From Agelas oroides (lineage: Eukaryota; Porifera; Demospongiae; Agelasida; Agelasidae): a DNA stretch of 64,000 bases. The notes under the pieces were generated by a model, which saw only the letters and a list, made by a program, of their open reading frames with translations, was not told where the DNA came from and searched no databases. Position numbers and translations under genes: made by a program. This document shows, piece by piece, positions 31,687-40,057 of this stretch. Numbering within the stretch: the first letter of the stretch is position 1; the number at the start of each line of letters is the position of its first letter. The DNA lies in contig OX422189.1 of NCBI GenBank assembly GCA_949130485.1, forward strand, positions 124,001 to 188,000, in the 5' to 3' direction.

Positions 31687-31888
31687 TCTAAGTGACCAGC
31701 GATCAAGATCCCAAGGTAGGGTCACACATGTACGGTTGTTTATCTGCTCCCTTGGAGACACCGTGCTCCATTTAACGCGCACCCAACAATTAGAAAGGGG
31801 CGTGGTTTGTGCCAACATTACGCAATGGTAAATACGAGGACCTAGGAGGCGTGGTCCACAGGCAAAATCGCATGCAGGACGGGTATCA
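31687..31888. promoter_or_regulatory. Shared promoter between IFT57 and the F-BAR/J gene
   Basis: 202 bp between divergent starts. It contains ATTACGCAAT near 31816 (ATF/C-EBP-like) and CCTTGGAGACACC near 31752, which only weakly resembles half of an RFX X-box. Confidence 0.45.
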
Positions 31889-32509
31889 ATGGAGAGACTT
31901 TGTGGAGTGGTAAGTGCTGCCAGTATGGGGTCGCTGCGCTTCCTATGGTATCATCTAGAGATTTGTGAGCACCTTCTAGTCACAGGCATTGCAAAACATA
32001 ATATTAATACAGGCACGGCCATCTGCTGCGACACGACATAGATTGTTCATGGACACTGGTTCCTTTCATCTCTCACACAGGAGTCAATGCCGATCGTCTA
32101 CCATCGCTTCTCAGATGGAGTGGAGATCGTGCGTTGTGTGCTCGAGTTCTGCAAGGTAGGAGGAGACTTGTGAACACAGCCCCTGCCTGCTGCTGTCTTG
32201 CTCCTTTGTTTGTCCATCTCCCTCCACCCTCCACCCTCCTCCATCCTCCCTCCTCCCTCCTCCATCCTCCCTCCTCCATCCTCCCTCTGTCCCTCATATT
32301 CCCCTGTCTGTCTCACATGCATGCTCCTGTCCGTCTGTCTCACATGCAAGATCGGTCTGTGTGTCTCCCCAGGCAGTGGCAGAGGTGGAGCGTTCCTACT
32401 CCTCCTCCATCCACCGATTGCTCCAAAGTACGGCCTACACGTTCCACTCCAATCTCCTGATGCAGTGGCTGGGCAACGAGCCCTATGAGGAGATAGGGTA
32501 GGCACACTG

Positions 32510-32577
<68 letters not shown>

Positions 32578-35500
32578 CCTCTCCCCATCACACCCCCATC
32601 CTCCCCCCATCACACACACACATCCTCCCACCATCACACCCACATCCTACCCCCATCACACATCCTCCCACCATCACACCCACATCCTATCCCCATCACA
32701 CACACATCCTCCCACCATCACACTCACCTTCCCCATCACACACTCACCTCCCCCATCACACCCATATTTCTTCCTCCCAATCAGCACACTGAAACTCTGT
32801 TGGCAGAAACTGGGTGTAGAGCTGTCCAAGCTGGCTGACTTACATGCTGAAAAAGTAAGACTTTACTGCTGGCTGTGCATCCTTACATCTACTGTCTCAC
32901 TATTCCTCTCTCCCCTCTCCTCCTCCTCTCTCCTCCCCCCTCCTCCTCCCTCTCCCTCTCCTCCTCTCTCCTCCTCTCTCCTCCCCCCTCCTCCTCCCTC
33001 TCCCCTCTCCTCCTCCTCTCTCCTCCCCCCTCCTCCCTTCTACTCCCCACAGGCTGATGCTTACTTGGATGCAGTACGAAAGCCTCTCTTTGATCTCCTA
33101 CCTCAACTTGAAGAGACCAGAAAAACAGTGAGTAATACTAAATACCAGGGCATGATGTTTGTAGCACGTAGCAACAGCTTGCATAGTTGCATGCACACAC
33201 ATACACACACACATGTACATACACACATGTACACCACCTACCATTCACACAGCTAAAGTCGAAAATGCAGCAGTTACGAATCACAATGGAAGCTGCACAG
33301 AGAAGACACACCAGGGTAACACACACACACACACACACACACGGTGCCAGTGTGTCTGTCTGACTAACGTTGCCTTGTTGCTAGGAGAAGCAGAGGTACC
33401 TCCAGTTGGGAGAACAGATGGAACGGCTCCACGAGAGAGCCTCAGAGCTGACCCAGAACACTCCAGCTGCGTCCAGAATGAAGAAGGTCTGTGGAAAGAA
33501 ATACTTTGGCAAAGACATTAAAATAGCCCCCTCCTTGACCACTTTGGCAAAGACATCCTAAGGATTTGCTAGTGGTGTAGGGACTTTTTCCAAACAGTTT
33601 GCTTGCAGCTAGTGGATTGAGTTAGCTTGAAGGTTGACTTTTTTGTTCTATTTTGTTCTGTCTCTGTGTAGCTGGGTGCTCGGGTCTCATTGTTACAAGA
33701 AGAGCTGACCACTCAGGAGAATGTGTACGTGCTATTAGTATGAATGCATTTCACCATTTATTGTGGTATGTGAGAAACAGGGTGAGGACAAAACGTCGAC
33801 ATATGCAAAAGATATTGAAAAATCTCCATGGTCGGGTGTCGACACAGCGGTTGCTAATTACTGTGGGAATTAGATGATGCATTTATAACTATTTGTTGCA
33901 ACAAATGCCGACACATGCTTTGCATGAGGCTTGGTGTAAAACTATGATTTGTCAAATCAATTAACAAGCATGCTTTTGAAAAGAGCACAATATGACAATT
34001 CCATTGGTCATTGTGTTGTAGTCATGGTAACAGTGATACTGTCAATTGTTGACCAAACATAGCCTTGCTCCCAAGCCTTCCCATCATCCAACTTTTGATC
34101 GCGTACAGTCTGCATGCTGCAAGCAATCAAAAGTTGGACATTGAGAAGGGAACTGTAATGAGGCTAGTCAGAATGTGTGCAGTTGTGAACTCTCATAACA
34201 TCTGTTTCCCTCCCCTTCCCTCCCCTTCCCTCCCCTGTTTCCGTCCCTCTCTCTTGTTGCAGGTATGAGGAGGCGCACACTGCGCTGGTCGAAGCACATG
34301 AAACATTTGACAAAGAGCTCGCAGAACTCTACAAGGTACGGTACCCCCCAGCCAGCCATCTTGCCCCAGAACCTTTACTCGTGACCTCATACTGATAATA
34401 CAAGTTTCAAAAATTGTCTACATATTACATCATATGGCCATGTTATAATCCTTCTGTCATACCATATATGGTCGTATACTTCATATGTGGCCATGTTGTA
34501 ATCCTTCTGTCATATCATATATGGTCGTATACTTCATATATGGCCATGTTGTAATCCTTCTGTCATATCATATATGGTCGTATACTTCATATATGGCCTT
34601 GTTGTAATCCTTCTGTCATACCATATATGGTCGTATACTCATATATGGTCATGTTATAATTCTTCTGTCATACCATATATGGTCGTATACTCATATATGG
34701 CCATGTTATAATCCTTCTTTCATACCATATATGGTCGTATACTTCATATATGGCCATGTTGTAATCCTTCTGTCATATCATATATGGTCGTATACTTCAT
34801 ATATGGCCATGTTATAATTCTTCTGTCATACCATATATGGTCGTATACTTCATATAAATTATAGCCATGTTGTAATCCTTCTGTCATACCATATATGGTC
34901 GTATACTTCATATATGATGTAACACACGATGTTACAGTACACAAGTATGGGAGGAGGGCTGTGAGTGAGAGTACTGTGTCACGCTTGGTAGTGTCTGAGA
35001 ACACAGAGCTTGAGAGGGTGAACACTAGAGCTCTTGTGTCACGTTCCTTACTGTGCATGGTTTGTGTTTCAGAACGCAGAAGACAGAGAGCTTGAGAGGG
35101 TGAATGCACTGAAAGAGGCTCTACATGAGTTTACAAAGTAGGCAGCAACATGCCCTAAAGTAGTACCCTGGAGTACGTCCTTCCCCCCTTCTTTTCCTTC
35201 TCCTCTCCCCCTCCCCTCCTCCCTCCTCCCCTCCTCCCTCCTTCCCTCCTCCCTCCTCCTCTCCTCTCCCCCTCCCCTCCTCCCTCCTCCCCTCCTTCCC
35301 TCCTCCCTCCTCCTCTCCTCCCCTCCTCCCTCCTCCCCTCCTCCCCTCCTCCCCTCCTCCCTCCTCCCTCCTTCCCTCCTCCCTCCTCCTCCTCCTTCCT
35401 CCTAGAACACTCTCCAACACTGCTCCTGCATATCTGGAGAGCATGCAGAAGATTGTAATAAGTGTGGATGAAATCAACGGTCATAGCGACATCCAAAACT

Positions 35501-38044
35501 TTGTGGAAGGGTACAAGGAACTCTTGACCCCTCCGGCTCCACCCGAACTAGAGAAATACAAAATCAAGGTCAGACTCTTGACGGTGTGCACTAGATTTGT
35601 CTCACTGGTTATTGACGGTGAAAAAGTTGAACTGTTTTTTTTTCCTCTTGCACACAGGATCCGGTTATCCTTCCGTATCAGGATGGTGACGTGAGACAAA
35701 GGGGAGGTACCTCATCGGAGAGTACGGAGGACAGTAGTGATACCCGAACTGAACCCACAAACTCCCACCACCACTGGACCAGCACGCGTGATATCAATGC
35801 TCATTTGAAGCAGATGTCGAGACCTGTACCAGCTGTGCGCAATCCAATACCAGCTGTGCGCAATAGACTAGGTAACCCTACCACTAGCATGGTGAACCCT
35901 GCTTTCAAAGACAATGGTGCAAGACCGGAAAATGGTGTCGTTTCTGAGGGGAATACTTTGCGGCCAAAACCGCGAAATGAAAGGCTAAACACTTTGCCCC
36001 GTTCCAGAGACCTCGCTCCACCCTCTCACACTGCAAACGCAGTCAAGACATGGGCCCCTCCAGCCACCGGTAACAGTGACAGTCGGGAGAAAGGGGAGAG
36101 GAGACCAACTATTAAAAGACCCGTTCCGGCTCCGAGATCCTTATCACTTCCGTCCCTCCCAAACAGCACAGATAAATTCACTGTCAAACCTAAGCAGCCG
36201 CCCAAGCCATTTGGTGGGAGCGTAGTGAAGGTGGATGTGTGTGACAGAGCAGAGACTGTGGTGAATCAAGACAGAGGAAGTTTCAAGGCAGGGCTGAGGG
36301 ACAGGACTAGCAACCCTTCTCTTGTCAATGATATGCGGGAGAACGAGGTGCAGACCAATATGAGACTACAGGTTCCTCCTGTTCCCACCCGACGAAGAAT
36401 GAATAAGACTTTAGACAGGAAGGAGGGAGATCTACAGGAAGGGTTAGCCATTGTTACTGAGGAGGATGGCAGAACTCACTCCAAAGAAAGAACACAAGTT
36501 CACTTTAAGTGGAATGAGAACAAGGTAGTTGCACCCCACCCGGATCTTGTCCAACTGCTCTCTCAGCTGCAGGAGTCTGCAGCCAACAATGACTATTACA
36601 GCCTGTTTGGTGTGGAGCCCACGGCCACCACATCTGACCTTGCTAAGGCCAGGAGGGAGAAGTCACGCGAGCTCCACCCTGATCACTTTGGGGGGGACCA
36701 CGAGCAGAGAGCTAGGTAAGAAGGAGAGGGTGGCCAATCATAATGAAGGGTAAGACCCCTTTCTTATGACTAGTACCCCTTTTCTTCTGACCCACTTCCT
36801 CCTCCCTCCCCCTCTCTCTCCCCCCTCCCTCCCTCCCTCCCTTCCCCTCTCCCTCCCTCCCTCCCTTCCTCCCTCCCTCCCTCCCTCCCTCCCTCCCTCC
36901 CTCCCTCCCTCCCTCCCTCCCTCCCTCCCTCCCTCCTCCCTCCCTCCCTTCCCTCTCTCCCTCCCTCCCTCCCTCCCTCCCTCCCTCCCTCCCTCCCTCC
37001 CTCCCTCCCTCCCTCCCTCCCTCCCTCCCTCCCTCCCTCCCTCCCTCCCTCCCTCCCTCCCCCTCTCCCTCCAGGGCTGAGGAGAAGCTAGTGAGGATCA
37101 ATCAAGTATTCCAAGATGTGATGAAGAGCGAAGAGTCTCGGGTGCTGTACAACCAAATGTGTCACTTCAGACAGGTATGAGCGCATGATGATTAATGTGT
37201 CACTTCAGACAGGTATGAGCGCATGATGATTAATGTGTCACTTCAGACAGGTATGAGCGCATGATGATTAATGTGTCACTTCAGACAGGTATGAGCGCAT
37301 GATGATTAATGTGTCACTTCAGACAGGTATGAGTGCATGATGATTAATGTGTCACTTCAGACAGGTATGAGCGCATGATGATTAATGTGTCACTTCAGAC
37401 AGGTATGAGCGCATGATGATGTCACTTCAGACAGGTATGAGCGCATGATGATGTCACTTTTATTTCATGCGCTCTTGCCACAGTATGAGAACCTCTTCTG
37501 ATTATCAATGTCATAACAAGGACATTGAGGATGGCAACCTCATCCCCTGGCCTGGGGACGAGGTTGTGGAGGTTCTCCTGCTAGCCTCATGGTTTGAGTG
37601 TGCATGCGTAGGGCAACTTACCACTCAAGCTACATGCATGGTCTGTTCCCATATTTGGGCGTTACACATTCCCACTCTCTCTCATGGTCTGTGCCGTGAC
37701 AAGCTATAATTATATGAAATCAGCAGTGTTCAGTGGACGCAACGTTCTGTTAAGGAAACCGAATGGGTAGCTTGTTCAGGCTCACTTGAAACATCTTCCA
37801 AGTTATACAGTTAGGAAGTGTCAAGCTGTCCTTATTCCATATTTGGGCGTTACACGTTCCCACTCTCTCTCAGGTGTATCCACACATCCTCGCTCAAGGT
37901 CGTGTAGGGCTGGCCACTGCGGAGGGAAAGCTTCTAGCGTTACAGCGAGCAGTGAAGAAAGCACAGATGCCTCTAGTGCTGTTGGAGGAACTGCAGCTAG
38001 CACTCAAGCTCATCAGAACACAACTGAAGCTACACTATAGTTAA
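31889..38044 (+). CDS. F-BAR domain protein with C-terminal J domain
   Basis: Fourteen exons: 31889-31909, 32081-32155, 32373-32497, 32785-32854, 33053-33127, 33253-33315, 33385-33486, 33672-33724, 34263-34335, 35073-35137, 35406-35568, 35658-36715, 37075-37174, 37874-38044; 737 residues. Residues 1 to about 290 look like an F-BAR domain: an FCH-like start ([25 protein letters not shown] is its core, residues about 14-38), then long helices rich in E, K, Q and L. One large exon gives a disordered linker with SH3 ligands ([22 protein letters not shown]). A J domain follows at about 606-670, with HPD at 635-637 ([11 protein letters not shown]) and the expected helix IV start ([15 protein letters not shown]). 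A last exon adds a leucine-rich helix. F-BAR domains bind curved membrane, J domains stimulate Hsp70. I know of no named family with this combination. Confidence 0.85.
32512..32775. repeat. (CA)n followed by CCCCATCACACCCACATCCT minisatellite
   Basis: A CA run at 32512-32575, then irregular 20-30 bp units, all within intron 3 of the F-BAR/J gene. Confidence 0.9.
32905..33050. repeat. Pyrimidine tract before F-BAR/J exon 5
   Basis: TCCTCCTCTCC repeats with a 50-60 bp higher-order unit, ending at the exon 5 acceptor. Confidence 0.9.
34420..34915. repeat. AT-rich minisatellite of about 53 bp in F-BAR/J intron 9
   Basis: About nine units containing CATATATGGTCGTATACTTC and TTCTGTCAT, varying slightly in length. 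Each unit contains palindromes (CATATATG, GTATAC). Confidence 0.93.
35180..35404. repeat. CCTCCCT pyrimidine tract before F-BAR/J exon 11
   Basis: Nearly pure pyrimidine on the sense strand, ending in the CCTAG acceptor at 35405. Confidence 0.95.
36797..37073. repeat. (CCCT)n tetranucleotide tract before F-BAR/J exon 13
   Basis: About 275 bp of CCCT with few interruptions, ending in the CCAG acceptor inside the J-domain coding region. Confidence 0.97.
37156..37452. repeat. 38-bp tandem array grown from the end of F-BAR/J exon 13
   Basis: About eight copies of a 38-bp unit containing GTGTCACTTCAGACAG followed by GTATGAGCGCATGATGATTA. The first copy is the true exon end plus donor; the others repeat both exon and donor sequence. 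Confidence 0.95.

Positions 38045-38361: not shown

Positions 38362-40057
<1,696 letters not shown>

Follow-up and report, generated by a model that had tools for sequence, protein, structure and literature searches.

An F-BAR domain joined to a C-terminal J domain in a predicted protein of the sponge Agelas oroides

A 64,000-nucleotide stretch of contig OX422189.1 from Agelas oroides (positions 124,001 to 188,000; hereafter the window) carries a 14-exon gene whose predicted product links an N-terminal F-BAR domain, through a long linker, to a J domain and a conserved C-terminal extension. Comparison of this predicted protein, which we call F-BAR-J, with relatives confirms that the fusion of the two domains lies in one gene and is not a gene-model slip, because two full-length relatives (P0002 and P0003) have FCH and DnaJ domains in the same order. 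F-BAR-J combines known parts in a new way, as a class C J protein anchored by an F-BAR domain. Both Pfam domains are already annotated in databases on P0003, a protein from the sponge Amphimedon queenslandica, and the combination of FCH and DnaJ is recorded there but, as far as we found, unnamed. Among open-licence papers, seen mostly at the abstract level, there was no description of an F-BAR plus J (DnaJ) architecture, and none named the Amphimedon gene LOC109582354. This result agrees with the preliminary description of this DNA, which knew of no named family with this architecture.

The F-BAR-J gene and its domains

The gene comprises the following features, with positions given in the window.

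31889..38044, plus strand: F-BAR-J gene, 14 exons, 737 amino acids
31889..35568, plus strand: exons 1-11, F-BAR domain (residues 1-295), from splice sites, FCH above the cut-off, 46% identity to both full-length relatives, and the fold of the P0003 model
31889-31909, 32081-32155, 32373-32497, 32785-32854, plus strand: exons 1-4
33053-33127, 33253-33315, 33385-33486, 33672-33724, plus strand: exons 5-8
34263-34335, 35073-35137, 35406-35568, plus strand: exons 9-11
35658..36715, plus strand: exon 12, encoding the linker (four PxPxxR motifs) and the J domain as far as HPD (635-637), from the frame, Pfam, and motif count
37075..37174, plus strand: exon 13, remainder of the J domain, from splice sites, Pfam, and alignment
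37874..38044, plus strand: exon 14, encoding the conserved C-terminal extension (residue 682 onward), from identity to relatives; modelled as helices in P0003

As the preliminary description had stated, the 14 exons all join in phase, and all 13 introns begin with GT and end with AG. The joined frame contains no stops, compared with 38 and 42 in the other two frames, and ends with LKLHYS followed by a TAA stop at 38042-38044. The exon boundaries were placed by eye following that description and the open frame is therefore partly by construction, with independent support coming from the homologs. Homology and profile searches were run with a 736-residue protein that left off the final serine.

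Pfam matched FCH at residues 11-95 (30.2 bits) and DnaJ at residues 607-674 (32.8 bits), both whole-protein scores above cut-offs of 27.8, and the same two domains were matched in all three full-length members. The proposed arrangement of F-BAR domain, linker, and C-terminal J domain is thereby borne out, with the FCH match falling inside the residues 1-290 to which an F-BAR domain had been assigned. The HPD motif is intact at residues 635-637, as described previously, and the basic helix II reads ARRE. Both motifs are invariant in the three full-length members, which share 36-40% overall identity. Possession of a J domain with HPD makes F-BAR-J a member of the J protein (Hsp40) family, and it would be predicted from these residues to activate Hsc70 by stimulating the Hsp70 ATPase. 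Class A and B J proteins have an N-terminal J domain followed by a DnaJ zinc finger, a DnaJ_C domain, or both. In F-BAR-J the J domain is C-terminal and Pfam lists neither of the other domains at E ≤ 1, and we assign the protein to class C because it does not have the class A/B layout.

Membership of the F-BAR family is indicated by both the FCH sequence profile and a helical F-BAR fold. An AlphaFold model of P0003, although weak in places, contains long F-BAR-type helices, and a Foldseek search with this model returned F-BAR/EFC domains in its first 13 rows with probability 1.00, followed by J domains, also with probability 1.00. Residues 247-471 of the P0003 model have a predicted local distance difference test score (pLDDT) below 50, while its C-terminal extension was modelled as helices at 574-592 and 597-621; the P0002 model has a mean pLDDT of 51.5. 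Matches to F-BAR subfamilies were scattered over Imp2, FBP17, PSTPIP1, and syndapin. The F-BAR domain would be expected to dimerise and bind membrane, but its net charge of -11 warns against assuming strong membrane bending.

Relatives, conservation, and the linker

Protein searches at E ≤ 0.01, each among 8000 scored candidates, yielded three proteins and then six, and Amphimedon was the only named sponge among the six. Only P0002 (610 residues) and P0003 (LOC109582354 isoform X1, uncharacterized, 622 residues, from a distantly related sponge) are full length, and both align end to end with the window protein. The other four, P0001, P0004, P0005, and P0006, cover only part of the protein, in frames around exon 12 that all stop at its end. 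In their aligned parts, P0001, P0005, and P0006 show 76-80% identity to the window protein; P0004 reaches 99% and may come from the same species as the window. P0002 is read in one unbroken 610-residue frame from a contig no longer than 4289 bases and probably derives from complementary DNA (cDNA), because its frame continues whereas the four partial frames stop where exon 12 stops. A further protein search recovered only P0003 itself among 378 candidates and missed the known relative P0002, a reach too limited to support a claim of absence outside sponges.

These relatives make it very improbable that two adjacent genes were mistakenly joined into one model. The junction at 35568/35658 invites that suspicion, since it falls just where the F-BAR domain ends, in the region where the linker diverges, with boundaries placed by eye. 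However, P0002 and P0003 are both single predicted proteins that run from F-BAR to J domain, and P0001 crosses from exon 11 to exon 12 without a change of frame, with some additional residues of probably intronic origin in between. On the evidence of the two full-length relatives, a gene-model slip was rejected. Alignments with P0002 and P0003 are unbroken across exons 1-2 and across 36715/37075 and 37174/37874, and the connection of linker to HPD needs no splice because both lie in a single frame within exon 12.

Conservation is uneven along the protein. The F-BAR domain is 46% identical to both full-length relatives, the J domain is 47-59% identical, and residues 675-736 are 49% and 47% identical to the two, whereas the linker of ~300 residues is only 16-17% identical. 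This pattern, with 46-59% identity in the F-BAR domain, J domain, and C-terminus, is as expected for working domains on a tether. For the C-terminal extension, Pfam gave no family at E ≤ 1 with any of the three pieces. Neither this conserved extension nor the existence of relatives with the same domain order featured in the preliminary description.

The preliminary description had also read SH3 ligands in the linker, a claim that holds in part. Standard class II SH3 motifs occur in 2, 1, and 1 copies in the linkers of the window protein, P0002, and P0003, respectively, and 11%, 29%, and 35% of shuffled linkers reach these counts, so there is no excess. In contrast, PxPxxR, a pattern picked after viewing the sequence, occurs four times in the window linker compared with a mean of 0.37 in shuffles (a fraction of 0.000 of 2000 shuffles reach four). 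PxPxxR recurs in the sister sequences but is found in neither the P0002 nor the P0003 linker. One stretch of the window linker, PVPAPR, presumably fits a CIN85/CD2AP-type motif. Together, these motif counts suggest SH3 docking by the linker in this lineage only. Clathrin boxes and NPF motifs number zero in all three linkers, where divergent clathrin-binding motifs are possible.

Proposed role and alternatives

We consider it probable, with moderate confidence, that F-BAR-J is a class C J protein anchored to membrane and that it recruits Hsc70 to the membrane bound by its F-BAR domain so as to dismantle a local assembly. In this process, the F-BAR domain would dimerise on a lipid membrane and hold the protein there, while the flexible linker would let the J domain reach out and, in this lineage, may dock SH3 proteins. 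The tethered J domain could then catch Hsc70-ATP and make Hsc70 clamp a nearby client, so that an assembly on the membrane would be dismantled or kept small; this could be a coat, a complex of partner proteins, or the protein's own F-BAR scaffold. The C-terminal extension may bind the client or regulate the J domain.

The best parallel is the worm endosomal J protein RME-8 (DNAJC13), which binds the BAR domain of SNX-1 (PMC9642905). There a J domain and Hsc70 are brought to an endosomal membrane marked by a BAR protein, and the authors propose that RME-8 and Hsc70 uncoat ESCRT-0 and SNX-1 itself (PMC9642905). RME-8 and SNX-1 are two proteins, whereas F-BAR-J is one chain. RME-8 is a 260 kDa protein with a central J domain, IWN repeats, and a domain that binds phosphatidylinositol 3-phosphate (PI(3)P), unlike F-BAR-J with its 737 residues and C-terminal J domain. 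Amphimedon LOC109582354 shares with F-BAR-J the order of FCH, linker, DnaJ, and C-terminal extension, but differs in linker sequence and length.

Among F-BAR proteins, CIP4/FBP17, PSTPIP1, Cdc15/Imp2, and PACSIN have the N-terminal F-BAR domain of F-BAR-J but, to our knowledge, typically follow it with SH3 or other modules instead of a J domain. If the proposed role is correct, a membrane-shaping protein could recruit a chaperone to the place where it acts. Evolution would thereby be seen to have merged BAR-type membrane binding and Hsp70 recruitment, divided between RME-8 and SNX-1 in worms, into one chain. The fusion would then provide a compact system in which to ask whether BAR-type scaffolds are dismantled by Hsp70, as the RME-8 authors propose in their model (PMC9642905).

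One special case of the proposed role, which we regard as possible but doubtful, is a self-limiting scaffold in which the client is the protein's own F-BAR assembly, dissolved by Hsc70 that the J domain recruits. The presence of both domains in one chain fits this idea, and in the RME-8 model SNX-1 is activator and client at once (PMC9642905). However, this reading presupposes that the F-BAR domain of F-BAR-J forms an assembly. More speculative and somewhat less probable is a sponge membrane coat with its own off-switch, in which an F-BAR scaffold assembled on membrane would use its tethered J domain and C-terminal extension to recruit Hsc70 for its own disassembly. The site might be endocytic or collar membranes of feeding cells that bear cilia, the gene being head-to-head with IFT57.

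The J domain may instead work outside any disassembly cycle at the membrane, as a mere binding module or in general protein quality control. J activity is backed by sequence alone, which leaves room for such a role, but the invariance of HPD and ARRE among members this divergent argues against it and we judge it improbable.

An auxilin-like uncoater that frees vesicles of clathrin, with the F-BAR domain in the place of the PTEN-like part of auxilin, is also unlikely. In favour of this reading, auxilin and GAK have a C-terminal J domain, as F-BAR-J does, and F-BAR proteins act in endocytosis. Auxilin and GAK also have a PTEN-like part and a clathrin-binding region, neither of which was found in F-BAR-J. 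At E ≤ 1, Pfam did not match PTEN_C2 anywhere in the protein, in keeping with the earlier statement that it has no PTEN-like part, and the linkers have no clathrin box in any of the three members. The window protein does have two loose clathrin-box matches, at 611 and 715, but these lie outside the linker, in the folded J domain and extension, and are absent from P0002 and P0003. A profile search with the J domain placed DNAJA1/DnaJ-type chains first and had no auxilin or HscB chain among its 53 matches at E ≤ 0.01. The genome also contains a separate auxilin/GAK-type J-domain exon on another contig (L009 1462-1794), recognised by 56% identity to a mammalian probe sequence. On these grounds, replacement of auxilin is disfavoured. 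Of the suggestion that F-BAR-J could direct Hsc70 to endocytic membrane in the manner of auxilin, the underlying F-BAR/J architecture and intact HPD are supported, whereas "endocytic" and "auxilin-like" are weakened by the J-profile result, the lack of clathrin box and NPF in the linkers, and the separate auxilin-type exon.

The HPD-x-F motif of the J domain is reminiscent of HscB. HscB model NF001420 matched all three members weakly (best E 0.00065), and HscB chains appear among the Foldseek results with the P0003 model. Identity as HscB was nevertheless rejected, as no HscB chain is among the 53 matches of the J-profile search.

Genomic setting

A whole-genome search with P0003 gave four exon matches, all at the F-BAR-J locus, but it recovered only 4 of the 14 exons and a diverged second copy could escape. 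An FCH search found at least three places elsewhere in the genome, a lower bound since the search did not pick up the FCH exons of the window itself. One of these is a long exon that is syndapin-like by its residues and 25% identical to F-BAR-J over 84 residues. PTEN_C2 gave one match in the genome (contig L004), which by its residues we take to resemble tensin, in an exon-by-exon search that an auxilin PTEN part could escape. Since F-BAR exons and a J exon of auxilin type also occur elsewhere in the genome, F-BAR-J is, by this comparison of predicted exons, additional to other F-BAR proteins and to an auxilin-type protein, and no stand-in for auxilin.

Upstream of F-BAR-J, IFT57 lies head-to-head on the minus strand, with starts ~200 bp apart.

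31687..31888, no strand: gap between the inferred IFT57 start and the F-BAR-J start, ~200 bp

The two genes may share a promoter, a possible sign that F-BAR-J is expressed in ciliated cells. Downstream, an NKAP-like gene at 38362-39027 on the minus strand, with Pfam Nkap_C in two exon frames, ends ~0.3 kb from F-BAR-J.

Two tandem repeats lie within the gene. A 38-bp repeat at 37156-37452 (8 copies, 96% matches) contains the end of exon 13 and its splice donor; splicing from one of the 7 later donors in this repeat would lead to a stop at codon 683, just after the J domain, with loss of the C-terminal extension. A 53-bp repeat at 34432-34916 (9.1 copies) occupies part of the intron between 34335 and 35073.
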